A stretch of 40,239 bases of DNA from positions 1-40,239 of IMG/VR virus record IMGVR_UViG_3300050821_003082; one strand, written 5' to 3'. A program made the position numbers and the translations under genes. Within the stretch, counting starts at the first letter, position 1. Every line of letters starts with the position of its first letter. Origin of the DNA: a virus. Positions 678 to 32,934 of this stretch are shown here, piece by piece. The notes under the pieces are model-generated. The model was not told the origin of the DNA. It saw nothing but the letters and a program-made list of their open reading frames with translations, and searched no databases.

Positions 678-1267
678 AGAAAACAACGCCTCCGAGTGGA
701 AGCGTCGCATTTTTGAGAAAAAGTGAAATAAAGTTGAAAATACCCCGTCTGGGGTCTTGTGCCGTGGTGAAGGCTAAGTTACTATTTTGCCCATATCGGG
801 CAGTTAAGCGCTCGCTAGCACAGACTCTCCAACCAAGAAGATAGGTGCTGGCGGGCGAACCCGCTAATATCATAATCAAACCCTGTATAAAAACAATCCA
901 ACATCTCGCTCGCCTTGAGCTTCAATGCAACTTTTTTCAGTAATAGGTAAAAAACCCCGTATAGCGCAAGAGAATGGCCTAAATTCGAGAGATTGTAAAG
1001 AGGTAATGGGGTAGGGAGGCAATAGGCCAGAATTGAACTGGCTAGAAAACCTGTTTCACGCGCTAGTTAATGATGGCCGGTTTTCGTTGCTAGCACCTGC
1101 GTGTCACGTCCACGCCGCTATTGCCATAAATTGGTGGCAAGCAAAGGACTTTCACCCTCCGTCCCTTTTGGGGTCGTGTACCGCTCGCCGTAAACTATTG
1201 GCCTATTTTCCCTAGGCTCCCTTCTTGGTGCTTACGTTCTCACCAGAGAGGCTAAGTATCGTCAGCC
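678..1267 (-). ncRNA. Candidate large structured non-coding RNA (about 590 nt)
   Basis: This stretch holds no credible gene. A minus-strand transcript is bounded by an extended -10 promoter at 1274-1282 and the terminator at 680-707. Long-range complements are 832-840 with 1221-1229 (9 bp), nested in 825-829 with 1246-1250 (5 bp), and 1021-1029 with 1198-1206 (9 bp). Local hairpins include 788-802 (TGCCC/GGGCA), 851-864 (GCGGG, UUCG-type loop on the minus strand, CCCGC) and 742-755 (ACCCC/GGGGT). The 5' end GGCT can pair with AGCC at 1250-1253. Size and phage context recall the ornate phage RNAs GOLLD and ROOL, but I recognise no family motif. One helix (814-821 with 845-852) pairs better on the plus strand, so strand is probable rather than certain. 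Confidence 0.6.
680..707 (-). terminator. Intrinsic terminator of the large RNA
   Basis: On the minus strand ACGCTTCC (705-698), loop ACTC and GGAGGCGT (693-686) form an 8-bp stem, extendable to 10 bp, followed by TGTTTTCT. The stem is fully paired only on the minus strand, using a G-U pair; the plus-strand version has an A-C mismatch. It lies 32 bases before the SD-preceded start at 646, so read-through here could also feed the replication genes. Confidence 0.65.
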
Positions 1268-1273
1268 AAGAAA

Positions 1274-1282
1274 ATTATATCA
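1274..1282 (-). promoter_or_regulatory. Extended -10 promoter for the large RNA
   Basis: On the minus strand the sequence reads TGATATAAT: a perfect TATAAT (1279-1274) with the upstream TGn motif of extended -10 promoters. No good -35 box lies 16-18 bases upstream, which is usual for this promoter type. Transcription would start near the G at 1267. Confidence 0.65.
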
Positions 1283-30138: not shown

Positions 30139-30464
30139 TTCTCAATTTCCTTTTGTTTTTCAATTTGTCTCTCGATTTCTTTTTGTCGTTTAATTTCCTT
30201 TAATCTGACTATCTCAATCTTCAATTTACTTGCAACCCATTCAGGTTCATATCCTAGTAAATTGCAGTAGTAGCAAAATAATAAATCATGTTTATTAATG
30301 AATCTTTCAGCGCCATCACAATCATTAACTCTTAACTCAGTTACTGCATCACTAATGGCCTGATTAAAGATTGATGAGACAAGACTTCTATTCCCATCAT
30401 AGTTATTTTCATGAGGTGAATAGTCTATTTGATATAACCAAAGCGCATCCCTGGATTGATTCAC
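29991..30464 (-). CDS. Phage protein with lysine-rich tail, GTG start (157 aa)
   Basis: It starts with GTG at 30464 (AAGGA 8 bases upstream). Residues 1-90 are a conserved-looking domain (SRDALWLYQIDYSPHENNYD, DLLFCYYCNLLGYEPEWVAS) and the rest is a basic coiled coil (KEIKRQKEIERQIEKQKE) ending in KKKKKKKSRKS. Such tails bind nucleic acid. The last part overlaps the zinc-ribbon gene in another frame. Function unknown. Confidence 0.6.
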   Translation of the reverse strand: MNQSRDALWLYQIDYSPHENNYDGNRSLVSSIFNQAISDAVTELRVNDCDGAERFINKHDLLFCYYCNLLGYEPEWVASKLKIEIVRLKEIKRQKEIERQIEKQKEIEKCKSLEVLPTPSKKSKQKTAPTNGKKTVSAALKSKKKVKKKKKKKSRKS

Positions 30465-30474
30465 AATTTATTCC

Positions 30475-30615
30475 TTATTTAAGTTCCCTTTCAAATTTCT
30501 TATTTTCCTTTTCAAGCTTTCTATACATCGTATCTTCTTTCTTCTCATGTTTTTTCACTTTATCCTTAAGCGCTCTCTTTGATTTGAGAGATAGACTTCT
30601 TTTCTTTGACTTCAT
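30475..30615 (-). CDS. Basic coiled-coil micropeptide (46 aa)
   Basis: It begins MKSKKRSLSLKSKRALKDKV and is nearly all Lys, Glu and Arg, a charged helix or RNA/DNA-binding tail. It overlaps the end of the upstream gene by 50 bases. Real translation is likely but not certain, since A/T-rich DNA easily gives such frames. Confidence 0.45.
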   Translation of the reverse strand: MKSKKRSLSLKSKRALKDKVKKHEKKEDTMYRKLEKENKKFERELK

Positions 30616-30763
30616 AATTCATTCCTGTGAGTGGGCCGTGAACTTTCTTGATGTAAGTAATACCTTTCAATCTAGGATCTGGACGAGACATCCATAGTAG
30701 TTTCTCTCGCGGGATATCATTAATAGCTTGCTGTTTTTTTACAAATTCACTGACATATTTCAT
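30566..30763 (-). CDS. Unknown protein after the portal gene (65 aa)
   Basis: It begins MKYVSEFVKKQQAINDIPRE and contains DPRLKGITYIKKVHGPLTGM. It is coupled to the portal stop through ATGA. No family is recognised; it resembles small basic proteins that follow portal genes in other podoviruses. Confidence 0.55.
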   Translation of the reverse strand: MKYVSEFVKKQQAINDIPREKLLWMSRPDPRLKGITYIKKVHGPLTGMNYEVKEKKSISQIKESA

Positions 30764-32934
30764 TCTTTAACTTCCTTTTTATGTTCAGGCTTAGTTGCCT
30801 CATGATGCTTAATAACTAGTTCGCCTAATTCCTTGAATTGAGTATGATCCTGATGATGAGCTTTCATTCCTAAATCTGCTCTAGCTCTTACCTCTTCTGC
30901 CTCTGCTTTAGCAAACCCTACTTCGAGTTTGTCCTGAGATTCACCAGCTTTTTGCATAATATTCAGACGTTCATTATCAACCTTTTCCTTATCAATGAGC
31001 AGTTTCTCAGTCTCTAGAGTAGCTTTTGAGCTAATCTGCTCGCCTTCAAGCTGTAACTTTGTTTCAGCTAATTGTAATTGCTTTGCTTCATTAGCAGCCT
31101 GTTGCTCCATGGCTTTTGCTTTAATAACCTCTGGATCTGGCTGCTGTTTCTTCATTTCTGCTTTTTTCTGCTGCCAAGCTTTAACCTTAGCGCGAACAAT
31201 GTCAGAATTTCTAAATTCGACATTATCAAGGAGAGTCTCAAGGCCAACATCCATCATGAATTCAGAAAATTCAGGAGATACTTTCATCAGCATGGTTAGT
31301 TGCTGCAAAGCCTTGTTCTTAGCGACAGAGAAATTAACTCCGGCCTGGACATTTACCTGTATATGGTTGCTTTCATAATTTAGGCTGATACCGCCTTCCT
31401 GATTGACCTTTACATTCTTTTTAGTGCCATCCTTAAGAATGACAGGCAATTCTCTCTTGCGCTTATTGATCTTCGGTATCAAATCCACAATCCCATTTGC
31501 TAAGGTAGTCAGAGATTGCATGTAGTTAACAATATAAGGGGCTACTGCACCATTTGACATGAGAGCAGCTTCTTCAATAGCATCGCCTGATATTTGCTGT
31601 CTATTCTGCGATAGGTCATATGATCCAAGGATGTTCTGGAGCATTTGAATCCCGCCATTGAATGTTTGTACTACCTCTGGCGGTAATCCAACTCTAGGCA
31701 CAGCTTGAGGTATCGGTAAAGTCTGATCGGGGTTTATATCTGAATAATACTTATGGACAAGTAACTGAGCCTGCTGTGAATTAGTCCAGGCTTCTTGCGC
31801 TTCTTCCTGAGTAGGGAGCGCCTCTTCTGCAATCATAAATTTGTGTTGCACCATGCTCTCGAAATCGTTTCCGATAACCTGGCCAGTGAAATTTATTAAT
31901 CTCTGTAAACCTTCAGTATGATAAATATATGGCTTAGTGAATTGCTCCATATTGGCATTATCTTCATCTTGGATAATGACAGAATCACCATCTACATAGA
32001 CGATATTATTAATCTTATATAGTGTATCTTTTTCTTCTAGGATAGATGATTCAATAAAGCGTTTACGTCTAATGTGAATAAAGTCCCTTTCATCTTCTTC
32101 TATAACGGCTGGCGGTTGAGCAGCATTTCCTGCAGCATTCCATTTCTCAACCTCTTTTTCATATTCATCTTTAAGCATCGTTTCATTATTTGCTAGAAGA
32201 ACAATTTTCTTCTTTGTCTTAACTTTTTGGTAATAATCGCAAATAATAACAACATATTGTTCCTGGTTCCTAAAAGACCAATTGAATAGGCCGTCACTTT
32301 TGACAAACTTTAAGGAATCAATATCAACTTTCGGATGTTCCTTTTTAAACTGTTCTTTATCCATGGGAAACAGTTCAAAATAGAATTCAGCATCAGATTT
32401 ATCTATTTCCTTTGACATAGGATCAAAGCCGACCATCGTATCGTTATATGGCTTGCCTACTTTGATAATCTGGTCAAAACTCATCTCGTTTTCGTATTCT
32501 GTCCAATATTTGAGATGGCTGAATCCGCCAGAAATAGAGTTTCTATAGCTGCCATATTGGACGTTCCGCTTCTTTGCATCGTCAAATATATAGCGCAAAT
32601 GGCCATCTATAAACTCGATTATTTCAGGCTGAATGGGTTTACCAGCGCAGGCAGACACCTCAATAGAAGGCTCTTGTTTACTGAATTCACCGCATTGACG
32701 GGATACCGGAGCATTAACGATATTGAACTCTAGAATAGGCTTTTGAGCAGCATTAAGAGAGGATTTATCACTGGCGCTTAGGCCAGTTTTGAATGTGAAT
32801 TTCTGGAAATCATGGAAGCGTTTAGCATTCGGCTTCCAATAGAGTATAGACCTCTCAACGTTTGCCTTCATTCTAGCAAGGTCATTCTGAGAGTCGTTCT
32901 TATCCTGCTTATTGTCTACAATCCCGTAACTCAT
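30760..32934 (-). CDS. Portal protein, P22 gp1-like (724 aa)
   Basis: At 724 residues it equals P22 gp1 (725). It begins with a helical region (DLARMKANVERSILYWKPNA) and has portal motifs such as RFHDFQKFTFKTGLS, PILEFNIVNAPVSRQ, and a large beta clip (SIVQGEQ-type regions around FEHTEGLQRLINF). The last 110 residues are a Lys/Gln/Glu-rich coiled coil, matching the long C-terminal barrel of P22-type portals. It lies between the terminase and scaffold genes, as expected. Confidence 0.85.
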   Translation of the reverse strand: MSYGIVDNKQDKNDSQNDLARMKANVERSILYWKPNAKRFHDFQKFTFKTGLSASDKSSLNAAQKPILEFNIVNAPVSRQCGEFSKQEPSIEVSACAGKPIQPEIIEFIDGHLRYIFDDAKKRNVQYGSYRNSISGGFSHLKYWTEYENEMSFDQIIKVGKPYNDTMVGFDPMSKEIDKSDAEFYFELFPMDKEQFKKEHPKVDIDSLKFVKSDGLFNWSFRNQEQYVVIICDYYQKVKTKKKIVLLANNETMLKDEYEKEVEKWNAAGNAAQPPAVIEEDERDFIHIRRKRFIESSILEEKDTLYKINNIVYVDGDSVIIQDEDNANMEQFTKPYIYHTEGLQRLINFTGQVIGNDFESMVQHKFMIAEEALPTQEEAQEAWTNSQQAQLLVHKYYSDINPDQTLPIPQAVPRVGLPPEVVQTFNGGIQMLQNILGSYDLSQNRQQISGDAIEEAALMSNGAVAPYIVNYMQSLTTLANGIVDLIPKINKRKRELPVILKDGTKKNVKVNQEGGISLNYESNHIQVNVQAGVNFSVAKNKALQQLTMLMKVSPEFSEFMMDVGLETLLDNVEFRNSDIVRAKVKAWQQKKAEMKKQQPDPEVIKAKAMEQQAANEAKQLQLAETKLQLEGEQISSKATLETEKLLIDKEKVDNERLNIMQKAGESQDKLEVGFAKAEAEEVRARADLGMKAHHQDHTQFKELGELVIKHHEATKPEHKKEVKE

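Follow-up and report, generated by a model that had tools for sequence, protein, structure and literature searches.

The phage record analysed here (the window, 40,239 bases, from IMG/VR) contains a 108-nt tRNA-like RNA module, and on comparative sequence grounds this module and its relatives almost certainly form a family of phage-borne tRNA-like non-coding RNAs with a defined fold, uncatalogued in Rfam. The RNA family appears to be new, non-decoding tRNA mimics as such (YrlA, tmRNA) being already known; no description of it was found in the open-access literature (PMC). The structural proteins of the window match the terminase large subunit, a portal protein (phrog_156) and the Hc3 head closure protein, and a ParB/methyltransferase match is also encoded.

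The module makes up 18% of a gap region with a GC content of 48%, compared to 38% in the window, which the initial annotation had described as a large structured non-coding RNA of about 590 nt lying beside the origin, with its own promoter and terminator and a resemblance in size and setting to GOLLD and ROOL. No credible gene was found on the minus strand of 1267..683, and for the two open reading frames overlapping the gap (643-879 on the minus strand and 1033-1215 on the plus strand) Pfam gave no match, even with the threshold relaxed to E<=1, in agreement with that description. The extended -10 element and an 11-pair hairpin were both present, but neither is statistically remarkable on its own: the sequence TGNTATAAT occurs twice in the window versus approximately 4 occurrences expected from base composition, and one terminator-like site was observed versus 1.2 in shuffled sequences, so neither is rarer than chance. 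The minimum free energy of the 611-nt region was -179.5 versus -172.5 for shuffled sequences (z -1.4, with 2/20 shuffles equally good), no homologue was found for the 142 nt upstream or the 340 nt downstream of the module within the gap, and blastn of the whole 590 nt against INPHARED gave only chance matches of 23-30 nt. The initial annotation was right about a structured non-coding RNA on this strand, but its conserved part covers only the module. The Rfam models for GOLLD, ROOL, OLE, HEARO and the group I and II introns, which had been proposed as a check, gave no match at E<=10 in positions 500-1400 and none at the gathering threshold in the window, and no Rfam family fitted the gap region at E<=10, in line with the earlier remark that no known consensus was recognisable. 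The proposed location beside the origin is plausible given the Rep-like gene downstream (Table 1). Relatives of the 82-aa neighbour gene (L002-L006) carry no tRNA-like element according to covariance model R1. Positions 1-110 of the window, which fall in the 3′ portion of the Rep-like gene, contain a threefold CTCGCTGTAGCGAGGGGGGGGG repeat beside an ATT microsatellite, and this repeat at the contig end is probably the point of an assembly break.

Table 1. Features of the gap region and of the tRNA-like module in the window
Feature	Position	Strand	Basis or remark
Predicted non-coding transcript enclosing the tRNA-like module	683..1267	-	No credible ORF; no flank homologue
Extended -10 promoter element TGATATAAT, perfect	1274..1282	-	Sequence
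tRNA-like RNA module, 108 nt	1018..1125	-	Covariance model R1 trained without the window sequence: 57.4 bits, E 3.6e-10
P1 5′ strand GGCAAUAG, acceptor-like, 8 bp with 1025..1018	1118..1125	-	8/8 Watson-Crick
2-nt linker CG	1116..1117	-	Family comparison
P2, D-arm-like hairpin GCGUG-GACGUGA-CACGC	1099..1115	-	18 complementary stem types in relatives
Pseudoknot stem S1, 5′ strand GUGCUAG	1090..1096	-	Pairs with 1066..1060
Pseudoknot stem S2, 5′ strand GAAAACC	1079..1085	-	Pairs with 1051..1045
Pseudoknot stem S1, 3′ strand CUAGCGC	1060..1066	-	Pseudoknot prediction
Pseudoknot stem S2, 3′ strand GGUUUUC	1045..1051	-	Pseudoknot prediction
T-arm-like hairpin GCCAG-UUCAAUU-CUGGC	1026..1042	-	Canonical T-loop UUCAANU; 5-bp stem covaries family-wide
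P1 3′ strand CUAUUGCC	1018..1025	-	Abuts T-arm-like hairpin without gap, as in the family
Intrinsic terminator-like hairpin	683..708	-	11 pairs, then TTTC
Downstream small gene, 82 aa	398..646	-	Overlaps start of Rep-like gene; neighbour, not part of the RNA
Replication-initiation-like (Rep-like) gene	Starts 405, runs down into contig end	-	phrog_270, E 1e-5

Covariance model R1 was built from 26 members with the window and its close relatives excluded, and the module was its only match in the window; P1, P2 and the T hairpin are all present there at the fixed spacing of the family. The predicted H-type pseudoknot formed by S1 and S2 reached p=0.049 versus shuffled sequences, and UCCC is found where a CCA end would be. 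Thermodynamic folding of the full window RNA gave P1 a probability of ~0.01, with competing pairings of P1 possible, and forcing the module helices costs only 2 kcal/mol, before any gain from the pseudoknot.

Relatives of the phage were gathered via their terminase and portal proteins and searched with a 661-nt region, and short matches in two of these phages (G034 and G017) pointed to a single stretch of the query. In the window and in three related loci (L066, L067 and L081) the 5′ strand of P1 is followed by CG and then by a hairpin of the GCGUG../CACGC type, with the P1 strands being GGCAAUAG/CUAUUGCC in the window, GGCGGUAG/CUACCGCC in L066, GGCAACAG/CUGUUGCC in L067 and GGUGGUAG/CUGCCGCC in L081. 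The P2 hairpin pattern run over IMG/VR, together with INPHARED queried with the members found, added over 100 further members; reciprocal motif scans of IMG/VR using either the P2 motif or the T hairpin gave well over 100 relatives, which is a lower bound. Named carriers are Caulobacter phage DMCA, Acidovorax phage AP1, Pseudanabaena phage Pan3, the Pseudomonas phages Orimi01, Persinger, PotUPM1 and vB_PaeS-D14H, Ochrobactrum phage POI1126, Komagataeibacter phage phiKX1 and Alcaligenes phage QDWS595, the known hosts of carriers include these seven genera, and in none of these named carriers is a non-coding RNA annotated at the site of the element. Few cultured phages have the element, which is common among environmental phages. 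Searching 84,980 bacterial genomes with the pattern gave 42 matches, none of which had the fold (the best, at 27.5 bits, is coding), and the 2 matches in 321 gammaproteobacterial genomes were chance matches, again without the fold; since no member was found in the bacterial chromosomes searched, the family looks phage-specific. One candidate (L071) was rejected as a chance match that reads as protein-coding, and L069, L077 and L079 contain isolated T-arm-like matches with the rest of the module absent.

From 5′ to 3′, the elements consist of P1 (8 nt), the CG linker, P2, a variable region, a near-invariant A (120/129 among the matches listed), the T-arm-like hairpin and P1′, giving a compact RNA of ~100-230 nt. 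The T-arm-like hairpin is stacked directly on the terminal helix P1 without a gap throughout the family, and the acceptor/T-arm stack and the D-loop/T-loop elbow of canonical tRNA are both represented. By sequence and covariation, the contact between the D-like and T-like loops resembles the tRNA elbow, with the two loops changing together: P2 loops GAAGGA or GAUGGA are accompanied by the T loops UAUCAAGC or UNUCGAGY, the P2 loop GAAAGCAGA by the T loop AGUAGCGC, and GACAGUGA by UGCAAUU, a coupling of loop types of 1.19 bits versus <=0.15 in 2000 shuffles. At the position matching G19-C56 of tRNA, the G-C pair is replaced by A-U in L280 and by C-G in L183, and in the second loop type the C-G elbow pair is replaced by U-A in L117 and L127.

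An anticodon arm with a 7-nt loop is absent from the family, and its position is occupied by the variable region, which measures 42-185 nt in nearly all members and is often pseudoknotted. An H-type pseudoknot was predicted at p<=0.05 in 16 of 84 variable regions, versus 4 expected (Fisher chi2 269, 168 df). The CCA end is not conserved either, as CCA directly follows P1 in only 5/129 members among the matches listed. A tRNA or tRNA-like sequence is nested in the variable region of five loci (L114 2049-2116, L116 7036-7132, L174, L355 and L368), and a second copy in L256 (4812-5010, minus strand) has a long insertion of ~80 nt in the loop of the P2 hairpin. Short frames in some variable regions were considered as tmRNA-like tag frames and rejected, since inspection by eye showed the stop to be unconserved among the close relatives L123, L124 and L128.

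All three helices (P1, P2 and the T hairpin) covary strongly across the family, which provides the compensatory changes that the initial annotation had proposed to look for in an alignment of homologues. In three core alignments, 99.2-99.6% of the pair cells are paired, with 185, 120 and 60 double-change cells versus 47, 29 and 16.5 in shuffled alignments; these alignments had been selected for pairing of P1 and T, and the search pattern had already fixed P2, and therefore the weight lies on the test with P2 only, the test with T only and the independent match of the covariance model. Among the matches listed, 93 of the 106 sites picked by the P2 motif alone had P1′ pairing and an abutting 5-bp T hairpin, and 77/106 had 8/8 P1 pairs, versus 4.3% and 0.5%, respectively, in the control with swapped P1 strands. 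Conversely, 89 of 112 sites picked by the T hairpin alone (among the matches listed) have P1, the 2-nt linker and a 5-bp hairpin, versus 6.3% in the swapped control. Within these 89 members, again among the matches listed, the linker was CG in 76, CA in 12 and CC in one, and 18 types of P2 stem were present, all complementary (including GCGUG/CACGC, GCACG/CGUGC, GCGCU/AGCGC, GCGUU/AACGC, GUGUG/CACAC and ACUCG/CGAGU), with the loop GAAGGA or GAUGGA in 78/89. The P2 loop was left free in length and sequence in this test and complementarity of the stem was itself a criterion, so the weight rests on the variety of stems around one loop.

Most carriers have one copy per genome, although two to three copies in one genome were found for L280, L287 and phage G034, and tandem copies 10-34 nt apart were found in L127, L189 and L275. 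In seven loci (L123, L178, L239, L272, L284, L315 and L334) the element lies 0-20 nt from tRNA genes, always on the same strand, but most members are not near tRNAs, with a tRNA within 600 nt for only 12/133 among the matches listed. In Alcaligenes phage QDWS595 (OK149171.2) the element shares its region with a tmRNA and several tRNAs: the stretch analysed (L310) contains at least 5 tRNAs and, at 67-414, a tmRNA match (RF01850, 93.8 bits), for which the feature table of the record shows no RNA, and the element follows 2 kb further on. In a 150-kb phage (L117), a non-coding stretch of ~330 nt separates tRNA-Met/Arg from the element; it contains the long-range complement CCACATTCCA/TGGAATGTGG and is possibly another structured RNA. 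The copies in G034, a relative of the window phage (L066/L308, L081/L306 and L307), all end in UCCA followed by a Shine-Dalgarno sequence, which could pair with CUCC of the element end.

The fold invites comparison with several RNAs. Like the tRNA-like domain of tmRNA, of which phage-borne examples exist, the family has tRNA-like ends around a pseudoknotted insert, but its acceptor helix is 8 bp instead of 7 bp, it has a real D hairpin, and its minimal inserts of 42-50 nt are filled by the pseudoknot; the tmRNA covariance model gave no match at the window module. The 8+5 bp acceptor/T stack is shared with tRNA-Sec and allo-tRNA, whereas the anticodon arm is missing, CCA is unconserved, and the tRNA-Sec model (RF01852) had no match in the window and recognised no member besides L081, which scored 30 bits, below the gathering threshold of 47. 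Phage T4 makes small stable RNAs of unknown function from its tRNA cluster, and RNAs C and D (species 1 and 2) resemble the family as small stable RNAs within a phage tRNA array, with RNA C ending in a T arm; however, the T4 pair lacks the 8-bp P1 and the D-like hairpin after a 2-nt linker, and model R1 found nothing at E<=1 in T4 70000-73500. In the T4 stretch with rnaC and rnaD (L303 909-1172), GUAGCG is present twice in rnaC and is the exact complement of CGCUAC in the first hairpin of rnaD, and by their sequences these two RNAs could pair with each other.

The acceptor/T stack with its elbow is the signature read by RNase P and by tRNA modification enzymes. Because the element presents this signature, it would be excised by the host tRNA-maturation enzymes, with RNase P acting at the 5′ end and tRNA 3′ exonucleases at the other, after transcription alone or together with tRNAs, and it would then accumulate as a stable RNA; we consider such tRNA-type maturation somewhat probable. 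Aminoacylation is not expected, as the element is unable to decode and CCA is missing from most members, and the scarcity of CCA means that 3′ maturation would need trimming and CCA addition, or another ending. The excised RNA may then serve as a trans-acting decoy or adaptor directed at a host factor that grips tRNA by its upper half, a role that we put forward tentatively. The partner is a guess: RNase P and the enzymes that modify T-loops are candidates, as are PNPase or a similar RNase and defence nucleases that attack tRNA, while the variable, pseudoknotted domain would be the phage-specific part. Taken jointly, the fold and a trans-acting tRNA-like RNA with tRNA-type maturation are the reading we moderately favour.

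The strongest rival among those with a known precedent is an adaptor resembling YrlA: docking of the tRNA-mimic domain on PNPase or a different RNase, perhaps with a Ro60-type ring protein in between, would redirect the decay of RNA. YrlA is likewise a small non-coding RNA (90-150 nt); it mimics the D, T and acceptor arms of a tRNA, has no decoding role and is modified by tRNA enzymes (PMC8394870). The structure of the phage family suggests that its tRNA-mimic domain may also be modified by tRNA enzymes. In the phage RNAs, however, the anticodon arm has given way to the variable domain and the acceptor-like helix contains both ends, the Rfam Y-RNA models gave no match, and Ro60/TROVE was detected in only 1 of 32 records, an 89-kb phage (locus L108) in which the phage-encoded protein (G069 30286-31152) lies ~27 kb from the element, making this adaptor unlikely. 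We also doubt that the gap encodes one large ornate RNA of ~590 nt of the GOLLD/ROOL kind with the tRNA-like module as one of its domains. A single predicted promoter and terminator do span 1267..683, and tRNAs are sometimes present in the linker of GOLLD (PMC12286853), but the flanks lack homologues, the fold of the whole region is hardly better than that of shuffled sequences, and in the relatives only the module is present, within short gaps. What holds of the parallel is the context, as GOLLD and ROOL are also phage RNAs near tRNA islands with unknown function (PMC12286853); the likeness in kind and size was not borne out, as those RNAs measure ~600-800 nt and their structure is unrelated to this compact tRNA-like RNA.

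A leader acting in cis on the downstream gene, as an antiterminator, a riboswitch or a ribosome entry element, could be suggested by the window RNA, which precedes terminator-like hairpins and the Rep operon, and by the three G034 copies just ahead of ribosome-binding sites. This is improbable, as no neighbour gene is shared: the nearest genes fall into ~200 families, none with more than 3 members, and such scatter speaks for action in trans. In addition, the downstream gene is on the same strand in only ~64% of the members, and several members either have a terminator immediately after them or are situated between tRNAs. Still less convincing is a functional decoder that matures from an aberrant true tRNA, or from a tRNA whose anticodon arm is replaced by an intron. 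The elbow and the tRNA clusters fit such an origin, as do the (U/A)CCA ends of L066, L067 and L081 and the canonical UUCGAAU T-loops of L127 and L287, but no conserved intron boundaries were found, minimal members with a 42-nt variable region have no anticodon stem, CCA is as rare as described above, and ARAGORN detected no tRNA in the window or at its nearest relatives. Hammerhead and pistol ribozymes are abundant in phages, and a small self-cleaving ribozyme with conserved loops at a kissing contact would share this abundance and would leave the stems free to vary, but it is the least probable reading, as the conserved nucleotides are those of the tRNA elbow, no Rfam ribozyme matched, and the placement in tRNA clusters would be left unexplained.

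Extended to the family as a whole, our preferred reading of a trans-acting tRNA-like RNA would describe a widespread new class of phage RNA, in which the upper half of tRNA serves as a processing and docking scaffold and a fast-evolving pseudoknotted domain replaces the anticodon arm, and which captures the host tRNA-handling machinery or blunts tRNA-targeting immunity; we consider this wider proposal plausible, though short of probable. The covariance model of the family can be used in annotation pipelines. Phages carry many tRNAs, and the family would explain some of the unannotated gaps in phage tRNA arrays. With a common occurrence and a tRNA elbow that lacks a decoding arm, the family offers a uniform object for asking what phages do with non-decoding tRNA mimics, and if the proposal is true, phages gain an RNA tool against the tRNA-handling machinery of the host or against tRNA-targeting immunity.
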